Assembly (NCBI GenBank): GCA_046760705.1
Contig: JBHIER010000129.1
Span: 1 to 8,112 of the forward strand
Direction of reading: 5' to 3'
Source of the DNA: JBHIER01 sp046760705 [NCBI: bacterium]
GTDB taxonomy: Bacteria > JBHIER01 > G020348925
DNA length: 8,112 nucleotides
The notes beneath the pieces were generated by a model. The model saw nothing but the letters and a program-made list of their open reading frames with translations. It was not told the DNA's origin and made no database searches. Shown piece by piece: positions 1,103-8,112 of this stretch. The translations under genes and the position numbers were made by a program. Each line of letters opens with the position of its first letter. Positions within the stretch are counted from its first letter, which is position 1.

Positions 1103-3247
1103 CTACACATCCTGTTTCGGGGCGAGGAACTTGTTGTAGAGCAGAAGGGCGGCGATGGTGAAAAGTCCGATGCAACTGAAGATGAGCCACAGCGTCCGGG
1201 GCTGGTTGAGATGGTCCACATAATGGACATAGAGTTTAGCGCCCATGGGGGCGCCTATGCTCGAGCCGATGACACCGTAGAGAAAGATGTAGCCCATGTA
1301 GGTGGCCACCCGATCCCTGGGAGCGGTCAGGCCGACGTAGCTGATGAACTTGGGGTGGGTGGTCATCTCTCCGATGGAGAAGACGATGATGCCGGCCATA
1401 AAAACCCAGATGTTTGTGTTGATGGCCAGGATGGCCAGACCGGTGGTGCCGAGGCCGATCCCGACCATCATGGTGGGCAGGGCCTTGGTCTTTCTGACGA
1501 TCATCGAAACGAGAAGCTGAAGCACGATGATGGTGCCGGCGTTGATGACCGTCACGTGTTCGACATCGAAAAACCAGTTGATGTGAAGTCCGATAGCGCC
1601 GAGGGTATTGTTGACAAAATTGTTCAGAGCAGTAGCATCAACGTATGCCTTTACGTACCACAGCACGGAGTCGAACATCTGAAAATAGAGAACCCAGAAG
1701 CCGGAGTAGAGAAAGATTAATAGCAGGAACCGCCAGTGGTTCCGAAAGCGGCTCATATCCTCAAAGTCCATGAGATAGATGGAGGGTGCGGTCAGGAAGA
1801 TGATCGAGCTCAGGATGCGCGAGAATAGGGAGAGTCCTGGCAACAGCCACAGCAGAGCTCCGGCCGCGGCAACCGTGACCACCGCGTAAACGAGCCGGGT
1901 TGAACGGGAAGCCGCCTTGTAGCGGGGTTCGAGGGCCAGTATCACCCCAGCCGATAGCACCAGCAGAGCGATGAAGGCCAGAAGGAACGGGCGGTGCGAG
2001 CCGCGCTGGAACAGATCCTCCACCACCTCCTCGGGCACAGTGGCCAGCTCTGGAACCGCCCGGAGGGCGGCCAAAAGCTCGCCACGGTACTCCTCGTAGC
2101 TGGTCGGGTCGGTCACCCGGATCTGGACCCTGCCTCCGGCTATCCGGTCCACGGAGAACCGCGCCTCACCCCCGATTTCCCTCAACCTCAGTTGCGGCGG
2201 TCTGGTCGCCTTCTCCACCATGGCCATCAGGGTCTCCCGGTCCACCGTGGCAGGTATCCCTGCTGCCCGCAACGAGTCCAGCATCGGGTCGAGGAAATCA
2301 GCTATGTCATCCGGCCGGTGCACCACCAGCACAGGGGCGAGGGCAGACCCCTGGCCCGGGACGACCTGAAAGGGCTGTTTGGCGGTCATGTCCCGCCGGA
2401 CCTGGACTTCGAAGAGAACTCCGTCCACATCGAAGGCTGTGCCCGGAGCGGCCACAACCGCGGTGCGCGGGGCCGCATACCGGGAAGCAGCCAGAGCAAC
2501 GAATCCGACCAGGAGCAAGGCGGCCAGAAAGGCGGTTCCCCTGCTCGCCCGGCAGGATCGGTAGACCAGGATCACGGGCGAATAGACGATCTCAAAGGCG
2601 TCGGCGACGGTCCGGATGAGGTTGAACTCCTTCCGGGCCTCAGCCTCCTGGGGCATGGGTGGATCCTTGAAAAGAGTGATCGTTGGAATGAGCATGGCGC
2701 CAGTGCAAATGGCCGAGGCGATGATGACCCACTCCCAGCCGACGTTGTTCTTCAGGAGGGGGACCAGGATGAGGGGAAAGAGGAAAGCTCCCAGGTTGAT
2801 GGACCAGTAGTAGATGCCGAACCCGAGGGTGGAGTTCGACTCGTCGGTGGTTCGGGCGATGGCCCCACTGATGACGGGCTTGAAGGCCCCGGCGCCGAGC
2901 CCCATGACGACCAGAGCCATGAAAACGGTGGTGTAGGAGGTCATCTGGCTGGTGAAGAAGTATCCGCCTCCCAACAGGGCAAAGGCGACCATGAGGGTGC
3001 GACGATAGCCGAAACGGTCGGCCAGGGCACCGCTAATGATGGGGAGAAAGTAGAGAAGCGGCTGAATGGTCCCCTTAATGGTACCGACACTCTCTTTTGG
3101 GAAATTGAGGATGTCGGTGAGATAGACGGAGAGAACGCTCATCATACCGTAGTAAGCACCGCGTTCGAAGAACTCGAACATGACCACGACCCAGTAGAGT
3201 CGGGGGAAGGATCTGAGAGTACCGGTCTTGGGTTTCGATTCGGCCAC
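1103..3247 (-). CDS. POT-family (PTR2) proton:oligopeptide symporter with an inserted extracytoplasmic domain
   Basis: A 714-residue inner-membrane carrier of the major facilitator superfamily, predicted to import di- and tripeptides with protons. Family marks are clear: the E25-F-F-E28-R29 motif in TM1 followed by AYYG, the TM4 lysine in GAFKP (K123), the INLGA motif (150-154) and the TM10 glutamate in IGEM (E627). The N-terminal half spans about 17-195 and the C-terminal half about 505-706. Bacterial members usually have 450-550 residues. Here the linker between the halves (about 230-490) contains a TM helix at 236-254, a soluble segment at 255-418 and TM helices at about 419-438 and 451-471, perhaps with one more at 476-492. 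By topology the soluble part should lie outside the cytoplasm. GTG is the start because GAGGAG sits 6 bases upstream and family similarity begins at once. The gene ends at the junction with the ATPase remnant. Confidence 0.9.
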   Translation of the reverse strand: MAESKPKTGTLRSFPRLYWVVVMFEFFERGAYYGMMSVLSVYLTDILNFPKESVGTIKGTIQPLLYFLPIISGALADRFGYRRTLMVAFALLGGGYFFTSQMTSYTTVFMALVVMGLGAGAFKPVISGAIARTTDESNSTLGFGIYYWSINLGAFLFPLILVPLLKNNVGWEWVIIASAICTGAMLIPTITLFKDPPMPQEAEARKEFNLIRTVADAFEIVYSPVILVYRSCRASRGTAFLAALLLVGFVALAASRYAAPRTAVVAAPGTAFDVDGVLFEVQVRRDMTAKQPFQVVPGQGSALAPVLVVHRPDDIADFLDPMLDSLRAAGIPATVDRETLMAMVEKATRPPQLRLREIGGEARFSVDRIAGGRVQIRVTDPTSYEEYRGELLAALRAVPELATVPEEVVEDLFQRGSHRPFLLAFIALLVLSAGVILALEPRYKAASRSTRLVYAVVTVAAAGALLWLLPGLSLFSRILSSIIFLTAPSIYLMDFEDMSRFRNHWRFLLLIFLYSGFWVLYFQMFDSVLWYVKAYVDATALNNFVNNTLGAIGLHINWFFDVEHVTVINAGTIIVLQLLVSMIVRKTKALPTMMVGIGLGTTGLAILAINTNIWVFMAGIIVFSIGEMTTHPKFISYVGLTAPRDRVATYMGYIFLYGVIGSSIGAPMGAKLYVHYVDHLNQPRTLWLIFSCIGLFTIAALLLYNKFLAPKQDV

Positions 3248-4376: not shown

Positions 4377-6068
4377 TCACAGCGATGGCCCTTTTATGAA
4401 CTGCTGCCCAAAATGGGCTGGATTCAAGGGCTCGCCGGTGGCATAGCGGAGCAGACCGTTCCAGTCGTATCGCTTGCCCGGCTGAAAGATGCGCTCTTTC
4501 ATGTAGTCGCCCACTTCAGGATGGTCGAAGTAGGCGGTCACCACAGGGTCTTGGGACTTCAAAACGGTCTTGGCGATGTAGGTATAAAACTGCGAGGCCG
4601 TCAATTCGCCGAGCATGTAATTGTGGTAGTAGACCGGGGCCGAGGTAAAATGGATCTTCGCCGCCCAGTCGGGTTCGTTCCTGTTCTCCGGGCGAATGAT
4701 GAGTTGATACTTTTCCTTCAAATCCCACCACCGGGTGTTGAGATCCCCATCCGGATCGGTATACAAAGCGCGTTCGAAGTTGAACATCACCTGGCACCAG
4801 CGGGCGAAGACCAACTGCCCGATACGTTGGCTCTTTTCGATGGTCGGTTGTATCCGGTCTCTCTGTTCTGGGGAGATGAGGCCCATGGCGTAGAGCCAGT
4901 TGGCATTGTGAGCCAGGCGACCGAACATCAAGGCGATGGCTTCGGTCGTAAAGGCGTGGGCTGGTCCCCGCAACAGGAAAGGGAGGCTGCGGTCGATATA
5001 CTTGTCGTAGACCCCGTGGCCCAGCTCGTGGAGCATGGTGTCCATCTCATATTCGTCGTTGGCCAGATTGGCCATGATCCGAATGTCACCCTCCCGGTCA
5101 ATGTCGGTGCAATAGGCGTGGGGGTATTTACCCTCCCGCTCGTACAAGTCACTGCGCTCGATGATGTCATCGACCTCTAAACCGATGCTCTCGTAAAACT
5201 TGGCCGCCAACCCTTTCACATCTTCGTCTTTGTAGAACTGATCGAGGCTCACTTCGGCCACCTTCGGCACCTCCTGGAAGAAGGGGTCGTTGTACCCCCA
5301 CGGCCGCATCATCTCGGGGGTGAGGCCGTAACGGGGAGCCAGGATGCTGTCCACTTCGGCCTTCAGTCTCCTGTAAGGTTGCTCCGTGGTCTCGGCCAGC
5401 CTTCCGAATAGATCGATCAGATCGGACTCGTTCTGTTCGGCCAGGGTGAGGGCCATAGTATAGTAGTTATCGAACCCCAGTTGTCGGGCCGCTTTGTTGC
5501 GGAGTTTGACCAACCTGATGAGGTCGGGTTGGACAACCCGGCCGACCTGCTTGCTGGCCTCCCAGGCTTTTTTCCTTTTGATCCAACTGGTCTCAGTTCG
5601 CAGGATCTCATAGATCTGTTTGGTAGAGACCTTCTGGTCATCGATGGTCCCCCGAAAGGTATTGAACTTCTCCTCGACGGCGGTGCTGATCTCCACCATC
5701 TGACGCATCAGTGTGCTGTCGATCTGATTCTCCAGGTAGCTGTTGAACAGCAGGGTCAGTTGGCGTGCCAACAGGGGATCCTTGACCCGGCCGGACTCCT
5801 TCCACTCCTTCAGTTGCCCAAACTCCTCACGGTTGCTGTAGATCTTTTTCAGATCCAGCTCCAGTTGGGCGTACCGGTCATACAACTGCTGTTCCCCGGA
5901 GGCCGTCGCCTCCCAGTAGGTGAGGTTTCTCTCCTTCAAAAGAGGTTGCACCCGAGCCAGATGGGATTTCACAAAGGACTTGAACCGCTTCTGTTCCTTG
6001 GTGGCGCAGCCGGCCACGGAAAGGATCAGACCGACGGTCAAAACAGCACTCACACCCTTATGAAACAT
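4377..6068 (-). CDS. M2 (ACE-like) zinc metallopeptidase, lipoprotein
   Basis: A 563-residue predicted peptidyl-dipeptidase. Residues 1-21 form a lipoprotein signal: basic start, hydrophobic core and lipobox V18-A-G-C21. Ala at +2 suggests the outer membrane, so the enzyme would act outside the cytoplasm. The zinc site is H347-E-L-G-H351 with the third ligand probably E376 in FTTEA, 25 residues on (24 in human ACE). The segment K471-x-H473 with Y480 seven residues later matches ACE Lys511, His513 and Tyr520, which hold the substrate's C-terminal carboxylate; this supports M2 rather than M3 and suggests release of C-terminal dipeptides. The protein is mostly helical throughout, as expected. 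It is the first gene of a minus-strand run with the glycosylase and the peptide transporter. The ATG has an exceptionally long ribosome binding site. The natural substrate is not readable from the sequence. Confidence 0.9.
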   Translation of the reverse strand: MFHKGVSAVLTVGLILSVAGCATKEQKRFKSFVKSHLARVQPLLKERNLTYWEATASGEQQLYDRYAQLELDLKKIYSNREEFGQLKEWKESGRVKDPLLARQLTLLFNSYLENQIDSTLMRQMVEISTAVEEKFNTFRGTIDDQKVSTKQIYEILRTETSWIKRKKAWEASKQVGRVVQPDLIRLVKLRNKAARQLGFDNYYTMALTLAEQNESDLIDLFGRLAETTEQPYRRLKAEVDSILAPRYGLTPEMMRPWGYNDPFFQEVPKVAEVSLDQFYKDEDVKGLAAKFYESIGLEVDDIIERSDLYEREGKYPHAYCTDIDREGDIRIMANLANDEYEMDTMLHELGHGVYDKYIDRSLPFLLRGPAHAFTTEAIALMFGRLAHNANWLYAMGLISPEQRDRIQPTIEKSQRIGQLVFARWCQVMFNFERALYTDPDGDLNTRWWDLKEKYQLIIRPENRNEPDWAAKIHFTSAPVYYHNYMLGELTASQFYTYIAKTVLKSQDPVVTAYFDHPEVGDYMKERIFQPGKRYDWNGLLRYATGEPLNPAHFGQQFIKGPSL

Positions 6069-6070
6069 GA

Positions 6071-6084
6071 TCCTCCTCCTCCTT
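6071..6084 (-). promoter_or_regulatory. Extended ribosome binding site of the M2 gene
   Basis: On the minus strand AAGGAGGAGGAGGA ends two bases before the ATG at 6068. Three overlapping GGAGG cores offer several registers of pairing with 16S rRNA, at spacings from short to optimal, which suggests high translation and fixes this start directly ahead of the lipoprotein signal. Confidence 0.75.
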
Positions 6085-6302
6085 GTTAAGATGTTCGTTC
6101 AACGGTAGGGAAGCTGGACAAAGCTCGAAACCGGAAAGAACGCATAACGAGCCCCGTTCGATAGAGGCTATCTCACAGGGCCGGCACCGAGACATACAAA
6201 CGAAGAACACCGCAGGTAAATATCGAGACGTAACACAATTTAGAAATGGACAACTCAGTTCGCCTCCTCTCCAAAATTCTCCACAGGGTTGCCTCCAGAA
6301 AA
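6085..6302. other. Left part of the divergent intergenic region, no gene seen
   Basis: This stretch should contain the leader and promoter of the minus-strand M2 gene, but I find no pair of boxes with acceptable spacing. TTGTCC at about 6249-6254 (minus) has no matching -10 at 16-18 bases. Open frames on both strands here show no family likeness and no ribosome binding site. Confidence 0.45.
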
Positions 6303-6385
6303 GTCTCATCGAGACGAGGGTCCCATCGGGACGAGGGTCTCATCGAGACGAGGGTCTCATCGAGACGAGGGTCTCATCGAGCTCG
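6303..6385. repeat. Tandem array of 17-bp hairpin-forming units
   Basis: The unit GTCTCATCGAGACGAGG occurs at 6303-6319, 6337-6353 and 6354-6370 without change. 6320-6336 is a variant (GTCCCATCGGGACGAGG) and 6371-6385 a partial fifth copy losing its right arm (GAGCTCG). Each full unit contains an inverted repeat GTCTC-ATC-GAGAC with 5-bp arms. In the variant both arms changed together (T to C on the left, A to G on the right), so pairing is kept. A worn CATCGAGA copy lies at 6418-6425. The period is not a multiple of three and there are no spacers, so it is neither protein repeat nor CRISPR. It sits between divergent genes, about 80 bases upstream of the HD-gene promoter, consistent with a multi-site operator, a structured RNA leader or an expanding simple repeat. 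Confidence 0.9.
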
Positions 6386-6464
6386 CCACGTATATTCTTA
6401 GAACATAAGATTCTGGACATCGAGATGCAAGGGAAAATCGTTACGCCGATGCTTCAATTGAAAC

Positions 6465-6493
6465 TTGACATTAGGCAGGGAAGAGGTTAAATT
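6465..6493 (+). promoter_or_regulatory. Sigma70-type promoter of the HD gene
   Basis: A perfect -35 box TTGACA (6465-6470) is followed after 17 bases by TAAATT (6488-6493; 4 of 6 consensus bases). Transcription would begin near 6500, leaving a leader of only about 23 bases before the ATG. The hairpin array lies upstream of the -35 box, where activators or repressors could act. Confidence 0.6.
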
Positions 6494-6503
6494 CTTGAGA
6501 TAT

Positions 6504-6515
6504 CCTTTCGAAAGG
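6504..6515 (+). promoter_or_regulatory. 12-bp palindrome overlapping the ribosome binding site of the HD gene
   Basis: CCTTTCGAAAGG is a perfect palindrome. Its right half shares AAGG with the ribosome binding sequence AAGGGG (6512-6517), which is 5 bases before the ATG at 6523. In RNA a 4-bp stem with a UCGA loop could partly mask that site; in DNA it could be a small operator at the transcription start. The stem is short, so the effect may be slight. Confidence 0.4.
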
Positions 6516-6522
6516 GGCGGAG

Positions 6523-7068
6523 ATGACGAGAGATGAGGCGTTGGATTTAGTCAGATCGAAGGTCTCAAACAAGAACCTGATCAAACATATGCTGGCCACG
6601 GAGGCGGTGATGAGGAGCGTGGCCGGCCGTTTGGGAGAGGATCCGGAGCCGTGGGGGTTGGCCGGCCTTCTTCACGATTTAGATTACGACCAGACGGTGG
6701 ACGATTTCCCCAGGCACGGGCTTCTAACAGCGGAAATGCTGGCAGCCTTTGACGTTGATGCAACTGTTGTCCAAGCCATCAAGGCCCATCCCGGGCACGT
6801 GCCGGCCCAGTCGCGCATGGATAAGGCCCTCTACGCTGTGGATCCTTTGACCGGACTCATCGTCGCAGCCGCCTTGATGCACCCGACGAAGAAGCTCAAA
6901 AGCGTCGATACGGCCTTCGTTATGAACCGGTTCAAGGAGAAACGGTTCGCCGCTGGGGCCAATAGAGAGCAGATCAAAACCTGTGACCGGATTGGACTCG
7001 AAGTGGAGGAGTTTATCGGGATTGCTTTAAGAGCGATGCAGAGCATAGATGACCAGTTGGGTCTATGA
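6523..7068 (+). CDS. HD-superfamily predicted hydrolase
   Basis: A 181-residue cytoplasmic protein with a single HD domain, the metal-dependent phosphohydrolase fold. Metal-site residues in order: H22 in NLIKHMLATE, H51-D52 in GLLHDLDYD, H65 in PRHG, H89 and H92 in KAHPGH, and D107 in AVDPLTGLI. The pattern and length fit the stand-alone bacterial HD hydrolases grouped as COG2316 in my memory; the substrate of these proteins is not established, nucleotides being the usual guess. There is no sensor or output domain. The ATG follows AAGGGG by 5 bases, and a good promoter lies just upstream. It is divergent from the M2 gene and ends before a repeat element that separates it from the PHP gene, so it is probably transcribed alone. 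Confidence 0.88.
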   Translation: MTRDEALDLVRSKVSNKNLIKHMLATEAVMRSVAGRLGEDPEPWGLAGLLHDLDYDQTVDDFPRHGLLTAEMLAAFDVDATVVQAIKAHPGHVPAQSRMDKALYAVDPLTGLIVAAALMHPTKKLKSVDTAFVMNRFKEKRFAAGANREQIKTCDRIGLEVEEFIGIALRAMQSIDDQLGL

Positions 7069-7201: not shown

Positions 7202-7294
7202 GCAGAATACGAATTCAGCAAACTCCCGGACAGACACTAAATAGACGCGTAAACGGGTAACTCCGTGACCCTCCGGGCGACCCCTCAGAGGTTT

Positions 7295-8112
7295 ATGGTT
7301 TTGGCAGACAGATTGTGCGAGTATGTCGGTGCCATCCACATCCATTCCAATTACTCCGACGGCTCGAAGACGATCCCAGAAATCGCCGCCATTGGTGAGT
7401 CGGTGGGCCTCGATTTTCTCCTCTTCGCCGATCACATGACCCTCAAGCCCCTGGCCGATGGCCTCGAAGGATGGCACGGCAAAGTCCTGGTCCTCATCGG
7501 GTACGAGATCAACGATCCTCAGAATCGGAATCACTATCTGGCCTTTAATCTTGACGAGATTGTTGAGCCTGGCCTGCCGGCGAAGGTGTATGTGAAGACC
7601 GTCAGGGAGAGAGGGGGGATCGGCCTCATCGCCCACCCCGACGAAGTCCGGACCGCACTTCCCGATCACCCCTCCTATCCCTGGACAGAATGGAGCGTCG
7701 ATGGGTTCGACGGCATCGAAATATGGAATCACATGTCGGAATGGATGGAGGGTTTGACCAGACACAACAAGCTGTGGCGGTTTCTCTCTCCCCGAAGGGC
7801 GTTGAAAGGCCCGACGGCCAGGACATTGAAATGGTGGGACGATTTCAACCAACGGAGGAGAGTGGTCGGAATTGGCGGTATCGACGTCCACGCCTATCCG
7901 TACAAGGTCGGACCGATCACTGTTGAAATCTTCCCGTACAAGGTTCAGCTCAAATCGATTCGCACTCACCTGTTACTGGATGCGCCGTTATCCTCCGATG
8001 TCCAGGTTAGCAAAGAGGCGGTCTATCGGTCTTTGACCCACGGTTCGGCCTTCGTCTCCCATTACCGGTGGGGCGATGCCACGGGATTTCGTTTTTGGGC
8101 CGAGAGTGGGGA
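7295..8112 (+). CDS. PHP-domain metallohydrolase, CehA/McbA-like, 3' end beyond the window
   Basis: At least 272 codons are open to the right edge with no stop, so the gene is partial. All PHP-fold metal motifs are present in order: H15-x-H17 with S21-D22-G23; D46-H47 in FADHMT; E71 in GYEIND and H80 in NHYL; H114 in LIAHP; and D197-x-H199 in GGIDVHAY. The complete set argues for an active, tri-metal phosphoesterase-like hydrolase, as in the CehA/McbA and polymerase-type PHP proteins. Substrate is unknown. There is no signal peptide, so it is probably cytoplasmic. A basic, tryptophan-containing stretch (about 150-190) lies between motifs III and IV, and sequence after 205 begins a further beta-rich part. 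The start is uncertain: ATG at 7295 has AGAGG only 3 bases before it, while TTG at 7301 has it 9 bases away. The repeat element upstream suggests separate transcription from the HD gene. Confidence 0.85.
   Translation, partial: MVLADRLCEYVGAIHIHSNYSDGSKTIPEIAAIGESVGLDFLLFADHMTLKPLADGLEGWHGKVLVLIGYEINDPQNRNHYLAFNLDEIVEPGLPAKVYVKTVRERGGIGLIAHPDEVRTALPDHPSYPWTEWSVDGFDGIEIWNHMSEWMEGLTRHNKLWRFLSPRRALKGPTARTLKWWDDFNQRRRVVGIGGIDVHAYPYKVGPITVEIFPYKVQLKSIRTHLLLDAPLSSDVQVSKEAVYRSLTHGSAFVSHYRWGDATGFRFWAESG

Follow-up and report, generated by a model that had tools for sequence, protein, structure and literature searches.

The array of 17-bp units that lies between two divergent genes in the window (the whole 8,112-nucleotide stretch analysed here) is probably an ordinary kind of short tandem repeat, whose one neat detail is a hairpin with both arms changed in step. 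With moderate confidence, it may be regarded as a minisatellite-like, lineage-restricted repeat in a fast-changing spacer, which would have grown by replication slippage and in which quasipalindrome template switching would have matched the arms. The features on which this reading depends are as follows.

4377 to 6068, minus strand: M2/M3-like metallopeptidase gene (M2)
6069 to 6522, no strand: 454-bp intergenic spacer between the divergent genes (in the relative L001 it measures 224 bp)
6303 to 6381, no strand: tandem array of the 17-bp unit GTCTCATCGAGACGAGG, four full copies plus 11 bases, delimited by TRF and unit matching
6303 to 6319, no strand: unit 1, a perfect 5-bp dyad with loop ATC
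6320 to 6336, no strand: unit 2, with GTCCC/GGGAC in place of GTCTC/GAGAC and the dyad intact
6337 to 6353, no strand: unit 3, identical in sequence to unit 1
6354 to 6370, no strand: unit 4, identical in sequence to unit 1
6371 to 6381, no strand: partial unit 5, right arm broken, 3 of 5 pairs
6465 to 6493, plus strand: promoter-like site of the HD gene, TTGACA-17-TAAATT, one found against a shuffle mean of 0.4; the counterpart in L001 is TTGACT-17-TAAATT
6523 to 7068, plus strand: gene for an HDIG-type HD-domain protein (HD)

An earlier note, made from the letters of the window, had described four full units and a partial fifth, and this proved correct, with full units beginning at 6303, 6320, 6337 and 6354. 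The start of the array also stands, but the end given there, 6385, does not, because the fifth unit matches for 11 bases from 6371 and stops at 6381. The length of the divergent intergenic region, 454 bases, was likewise right. TRF reports a period of 17, 4.6 copies and 93% matches with a score of 144. When up to three mismatches are allowed, four matches to the unit are observed against 0.04 expected, and none of 200 shuffles reaches four. The head-to-tail, nearly identical copies of a unit longer than that of a microsatellite are as expected of a minisatellite-type tandem repeat. Two segments that flank it, 6222-6233 (ATCGAGACGTAA) and 6419-6430 (ATCGAGATGCAA), resemble part of the unit and may be either decayed copies or chance resemblances.

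Bacterial minisatellites and intergenic VNTR-type repeats consist of head-to-tail units of some ten to tens of bases that are highly identical, lie between genes and are restricted to particular lineages. The array shares the arrangement, the high identity, the intergenic location and the apparent restriction to a lineage with this class. It differs in that its unit is mostly a perfect dyad and that one unit has both arms changed in match. Some other known elements resemble it in part. REP and REPIN elements are likewise palindromic and extragenic and can form tandem clusters (PMC3116915). A possible difference from them is that the unit of the window occurs at control level in the 80 relatives' genomes searched, and a Pfam scan of five proteins of the window found no RAYT. 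The BrickBuilt MITE minisatellite of Porphyromonas gingivalis also has a short unit (23 nt), is spacerless and lies between genes (PMC4596501). BrickBuilt, however, possesses inverted-repeat ends and occurs in 19 copies in one strain, whereas inverted ends around the array did not exceed chance. With the array removed, the spacer was searched for arms more than 100 nt apart with at most one mismatch; the longest inverted pair was 11 nt, and 25 of 100 shuffles gave an equal or better one.

The neat detail is found in unit 2. All five pairs form in each of units 1 to 4, against three of five in the truncated fifth, and unit 2 departs from units 1, 3 and 4 at two bases, which lie in opposite arms and form a pair. 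The earlier note's double change, from GTCTC/GAGAC to GTCCC/GGGAC with the 5-bp stem kept, is thus borne out. Its further point, that the alternative hairpin between neighbouring units is spoiled by this change, holds in part. The junction of units 1 and 2 does gain an A-C mismatch, but the junction of units 2 and 3 gains only a G-T, which is a wobble pair in RNA. The between-unit hairpins at junctions 3-4 and 4-5 are perfect.

How surprising these features are can be estimated. Among random 17-mers drawn at window composition (20,000 trials), 5.3% contain a cyclic dyad of 5 bp or more with a loop of 3-8, as do 7.4% of shuffles of the unit, and the dyad by itself is a mild surprise. In simulations of 200,000 trials for each bias setting, two random substitutions in the unit prove to be matched and complementary with a frequency of 1.2% without transition bias, rising to 2.4% when the bias is strong. 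The matched change is therefore improbable by chance, as had been proposed, and the dyad bears on it. One explanation is nevertheless that two independent neutral substitutions in unit 2 matched by coincidence. The double change was seen once and singled out after the fact, and a frequency of 1.2-2.4% is still appreciable when a reader looks over so many features. That low probability itself argues against a coincidence, which is considered improbable. Equally, the tie between dyad and double change, which had suggested that the dyad may be under selection, is real, but selection is not implied by it, because template switching inside an inverted repeat can also match arms (PMC7202029, PMC8604942).

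In the mechanism that is preferred here, tandem copies of a hairpin-forming unit would have arisen by replication slippage. One arm of unit 2 would have changed first; a template switch by the polymerase inside the hairpin would then have carried this change over to the opposite arm, a process known as quasipalindrome correction. A perfect dyad could thus persist without selection, and HD or M2 would be affected, if at all, only incidentally. In published work, the nascent strand serves as template at inverted repeats in Escherichia coli and yields a more perfect repeat (PMC7202029), and mutations in yeast convert imperfect repeats to perfect ones (PMC3820800). Among natural strains of yeast, arm homogenisation is reported to produce the patterns commonly read as positive selection, so that an adaptive explanation is unneeded (PMC8604942). 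The spacer DNA aligns poorly between the window and L001.

The complementarity of the arms of unit 2, kept at five of five pairs through matched changes, is the outcome expected at a quasipalindrome template-switch site, where inverted repeats likewise have arms that become complementary (PMC7202029, PMC3820800). Those sites were followed as reporter mutations, whereas the array presents only an end state, and in a tandem array; none of the cited cases concerns a tandem array of this sort. By analogy, template switching would be enough to account for the matched change. That it was the actual event in unit 2 we infer from this one unit. Counted against it is the observation that the dyad is perfect in each of the four full units and that the sole changes in them preserve pairing, since selection would give the same result. 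No intermediate with one changed arm was found, either with the two-unit pattern in genome_contigs or among single units in the 80 relatives' genomes. The case calls for caution, since two changes that compensate each other within a single array look like selection on a stem, and a known copying process gives an equal picture. Repeated compensated changes in close strains, if they exist, would make this a small, tractable case for separating selection on symmetry from template switching.

The alternative most directly concerned with selection is an operator array, in which a dimeric DNA-binding protein would occupy each dyad and control HD, M2 or both, and the matched change would keep the twofold symmetry of the site. 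The perfect dyads of the four full units and the symmetric change are in keeping with it, as is the location of the array, with 83 bp between its end and the -35-like hexamer of HD and 234 bp between its beginning and the start codon of M2. The repeat itself is less favourable. A period of 17 bp corresponds to 1.62 helical turns, so that neighbouring sites face different sides of the DNA; binding along one face is thus less likely. Moreover, altering the recognised bases in both half-sites usually weakens binding, which counts against an operator.

Comparison with relatives bears further on this point. A search with the HD protein found 124 places that encode relatives, of which the best 80 were used; many of these loci other than L001 are short pieces, so that synteny there is only partly covered. 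Among these 80, the nearest relative is L001 (CP070758.1, Gemmatimonadota bacterium isolate bin29), whose HD is 83% identical. It is also the only one of them at which POT, Fpg, M2, HD and the PHP-like protein all match, with 72-85% protein identity. The 224-bp spacer between M2 and HD in L001 contains neither a tandem array nor a copy of the unit, and retains its promoter-like TTGACT-17-TAAATT at the matching place before HD. Of the 76 loci that have more than 500 bp upstream of HD, only L019 has a tandem array in the nearest 500 bp, and its unit is unrelated. A conserved position upstream of the same gene, which is expected of an operator array though not strictly defining, was therefore not observed. 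The earlier view that the position of the array fits regulation of HD or M2 is contradicted in the relatives examined, and a regulatory reading based on conserved position was rejected for them on the evidence of L001 and the 76 HD loci. The earlier note had also named loss of the array from a close relative, without other change, as telling against its reading. L001 does lack the array, but its aligned DNA is only 74-79% identical to that of the window and its whole spacer is shorter. Overall, an operator array is unlikely. A newly evolved form confined to one lineage, in which selection holds the symmetry of the site while the half-site drifts and in which the divergent HD hydrolase and peptidase are controlled, is more doubtful still.

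Another alternative is that the array forms RNA stems in the leader of M2 or in an antisense transcript, for example as an attenuator. The minus-strand RNA of 6298-6390 folds better than most of its shuffles (z -2.30, 3 of 200 as good), and the single stems of units 1 and 2 also fold better than their own shuffles (z -3.05 and -2.42). In addition, the minus strand has a single terminator-like site, at unit 1, where a stem at 6315-6303 is followed by TTTTC. Set against these observations, the shuffle mean for such sites is 0.6, and the plus-strand RNA of the same segment is unexceptional (z -1.08, with 32 of 200 shuffles as good). In its best fold the arms of unit 1 pair with those of unit 3 around the stem of unit 2, and separate unit stems are not formed. 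No promoter-like site for M2 was found on the minus strand of 6040-6560, and Rfam 15 gave no match at or above the gathering score in the whole window. An RNA stem array consequently appears very unlikely. When the array was folded as single-stranded DNA, neither strand was exceptional (z -0.22 and -0.44).

The restriction to one lineage that the preferred reading, a slippage-grown repeat with template switching, includes was assessed by searching for the unit elsewhere. A two-unit pattern, in which arm positions 3-4 and the loop were free, had no match in genome_contigs (one genome per species, 84,980 species); this pattern demands two whole neighbouring units with an exact GAGG spacer, so that degenerate or single copies escape it. 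Among 50 genomes, 9 contained single units with up to two mismatches, at 12 places in all, where the reversed control gave 13; among 30 further genomes 4 did, with 5 places against 6 for the control. Over the 80 genomes behind the HD relatives the total of 17 against 19 is at control level, and two units side by side occurred in none of them. The many copies with unpaired arm changes that would mark a neutral simple repeat, as the earlier note had envisaged, were accordingly not found in these 80 genomes. The relative G052 has one lone match that differs from the unit by a single base. In G001, the degenerate single-unit search gave one exact match with unpaired arms, and the two-unit pattern at up to two mismatches had no match. 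This genome has two single-unit matches, one of them about 25 kb from HD in L088, a locus of long reading frames without firm assignment. Kinship searches around G001 gave back that genome only and are uninformative on its family.

Mobile DNA and the literature were also searched. The array query gave two plasmid hits at E 0.8 and no match in phages, and the spacer DNA had no plasmid match at E 0.1. Viral contigs contained no match to the one-unit pattern and no confirmed relative by HD protein. A literature search with the literal 17-bp unit found no paper. Against six relatives, the spacer DNA gave 47 pieces with E no higher than 10, of which the best was a 25-base match in G031 (E 0.0089); it lies outside the array and was taken as chance. 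Judged by these sequence searches, the array is apparently restricted to, and new in, this lineage.

Tandem arrays with dyads are found elsewhere among the relatives. In the 2.0 of 5.04 Mb of the nearest relative that was scanned by TRF (100 stretches of 20 kb), 38 rows had a period of 10-60 and at least 2.8 copies, and two of the 38 contained a dyad of at least 5 bp, with 79% matches each. The 17-bp unit was in none of these 38 rows. In a set of 94 loci, 38 TRF rows outside the window reached 2.5 copies or more, none with the unit of the window; three of them carry dyads of 5-6 bp (L011, L044 and L065). The array of L044, with a 56-bp unit at 97%, shows that the window is not alone in having a near-perfect array with a dyad. 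Two further repeats were observed. One, a degenerate tandem repeat of 30 bp that contains a CCCTTTCATAAGGG dyad, lies near the ends of reading frames at 17143-17250 of L107, in the relative G001. At 2653-2752 of L037, a different 17-bp array of 5.9 copies at 93% begins at the 3' end of the HD match (2125-2667).

Some observations concern the genes around the spacer. Positions 1103-3247 encode a POT/MFS-type transporter whose matched parts (Pfam 26-254 and NCBIfam 452-702) are separated by about 200 residues, pointing to a long insert between them. It matches L001 over 713 residues at 73%, and window DNA 1850-2272 within it is unaligned to L001 by blastn. Adjoining HD, positions 7265-8110 encode a PHP-like protein that resembles the CehA/McbA family with a score below the family cut-off. 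A PHP-like match occurs in 11 of the 80 HD loci and, where its place is listed, lies within about 3 kb downstream of HD, suggesting that the PHP-like gene and HD form a kept gene neighbourhood.
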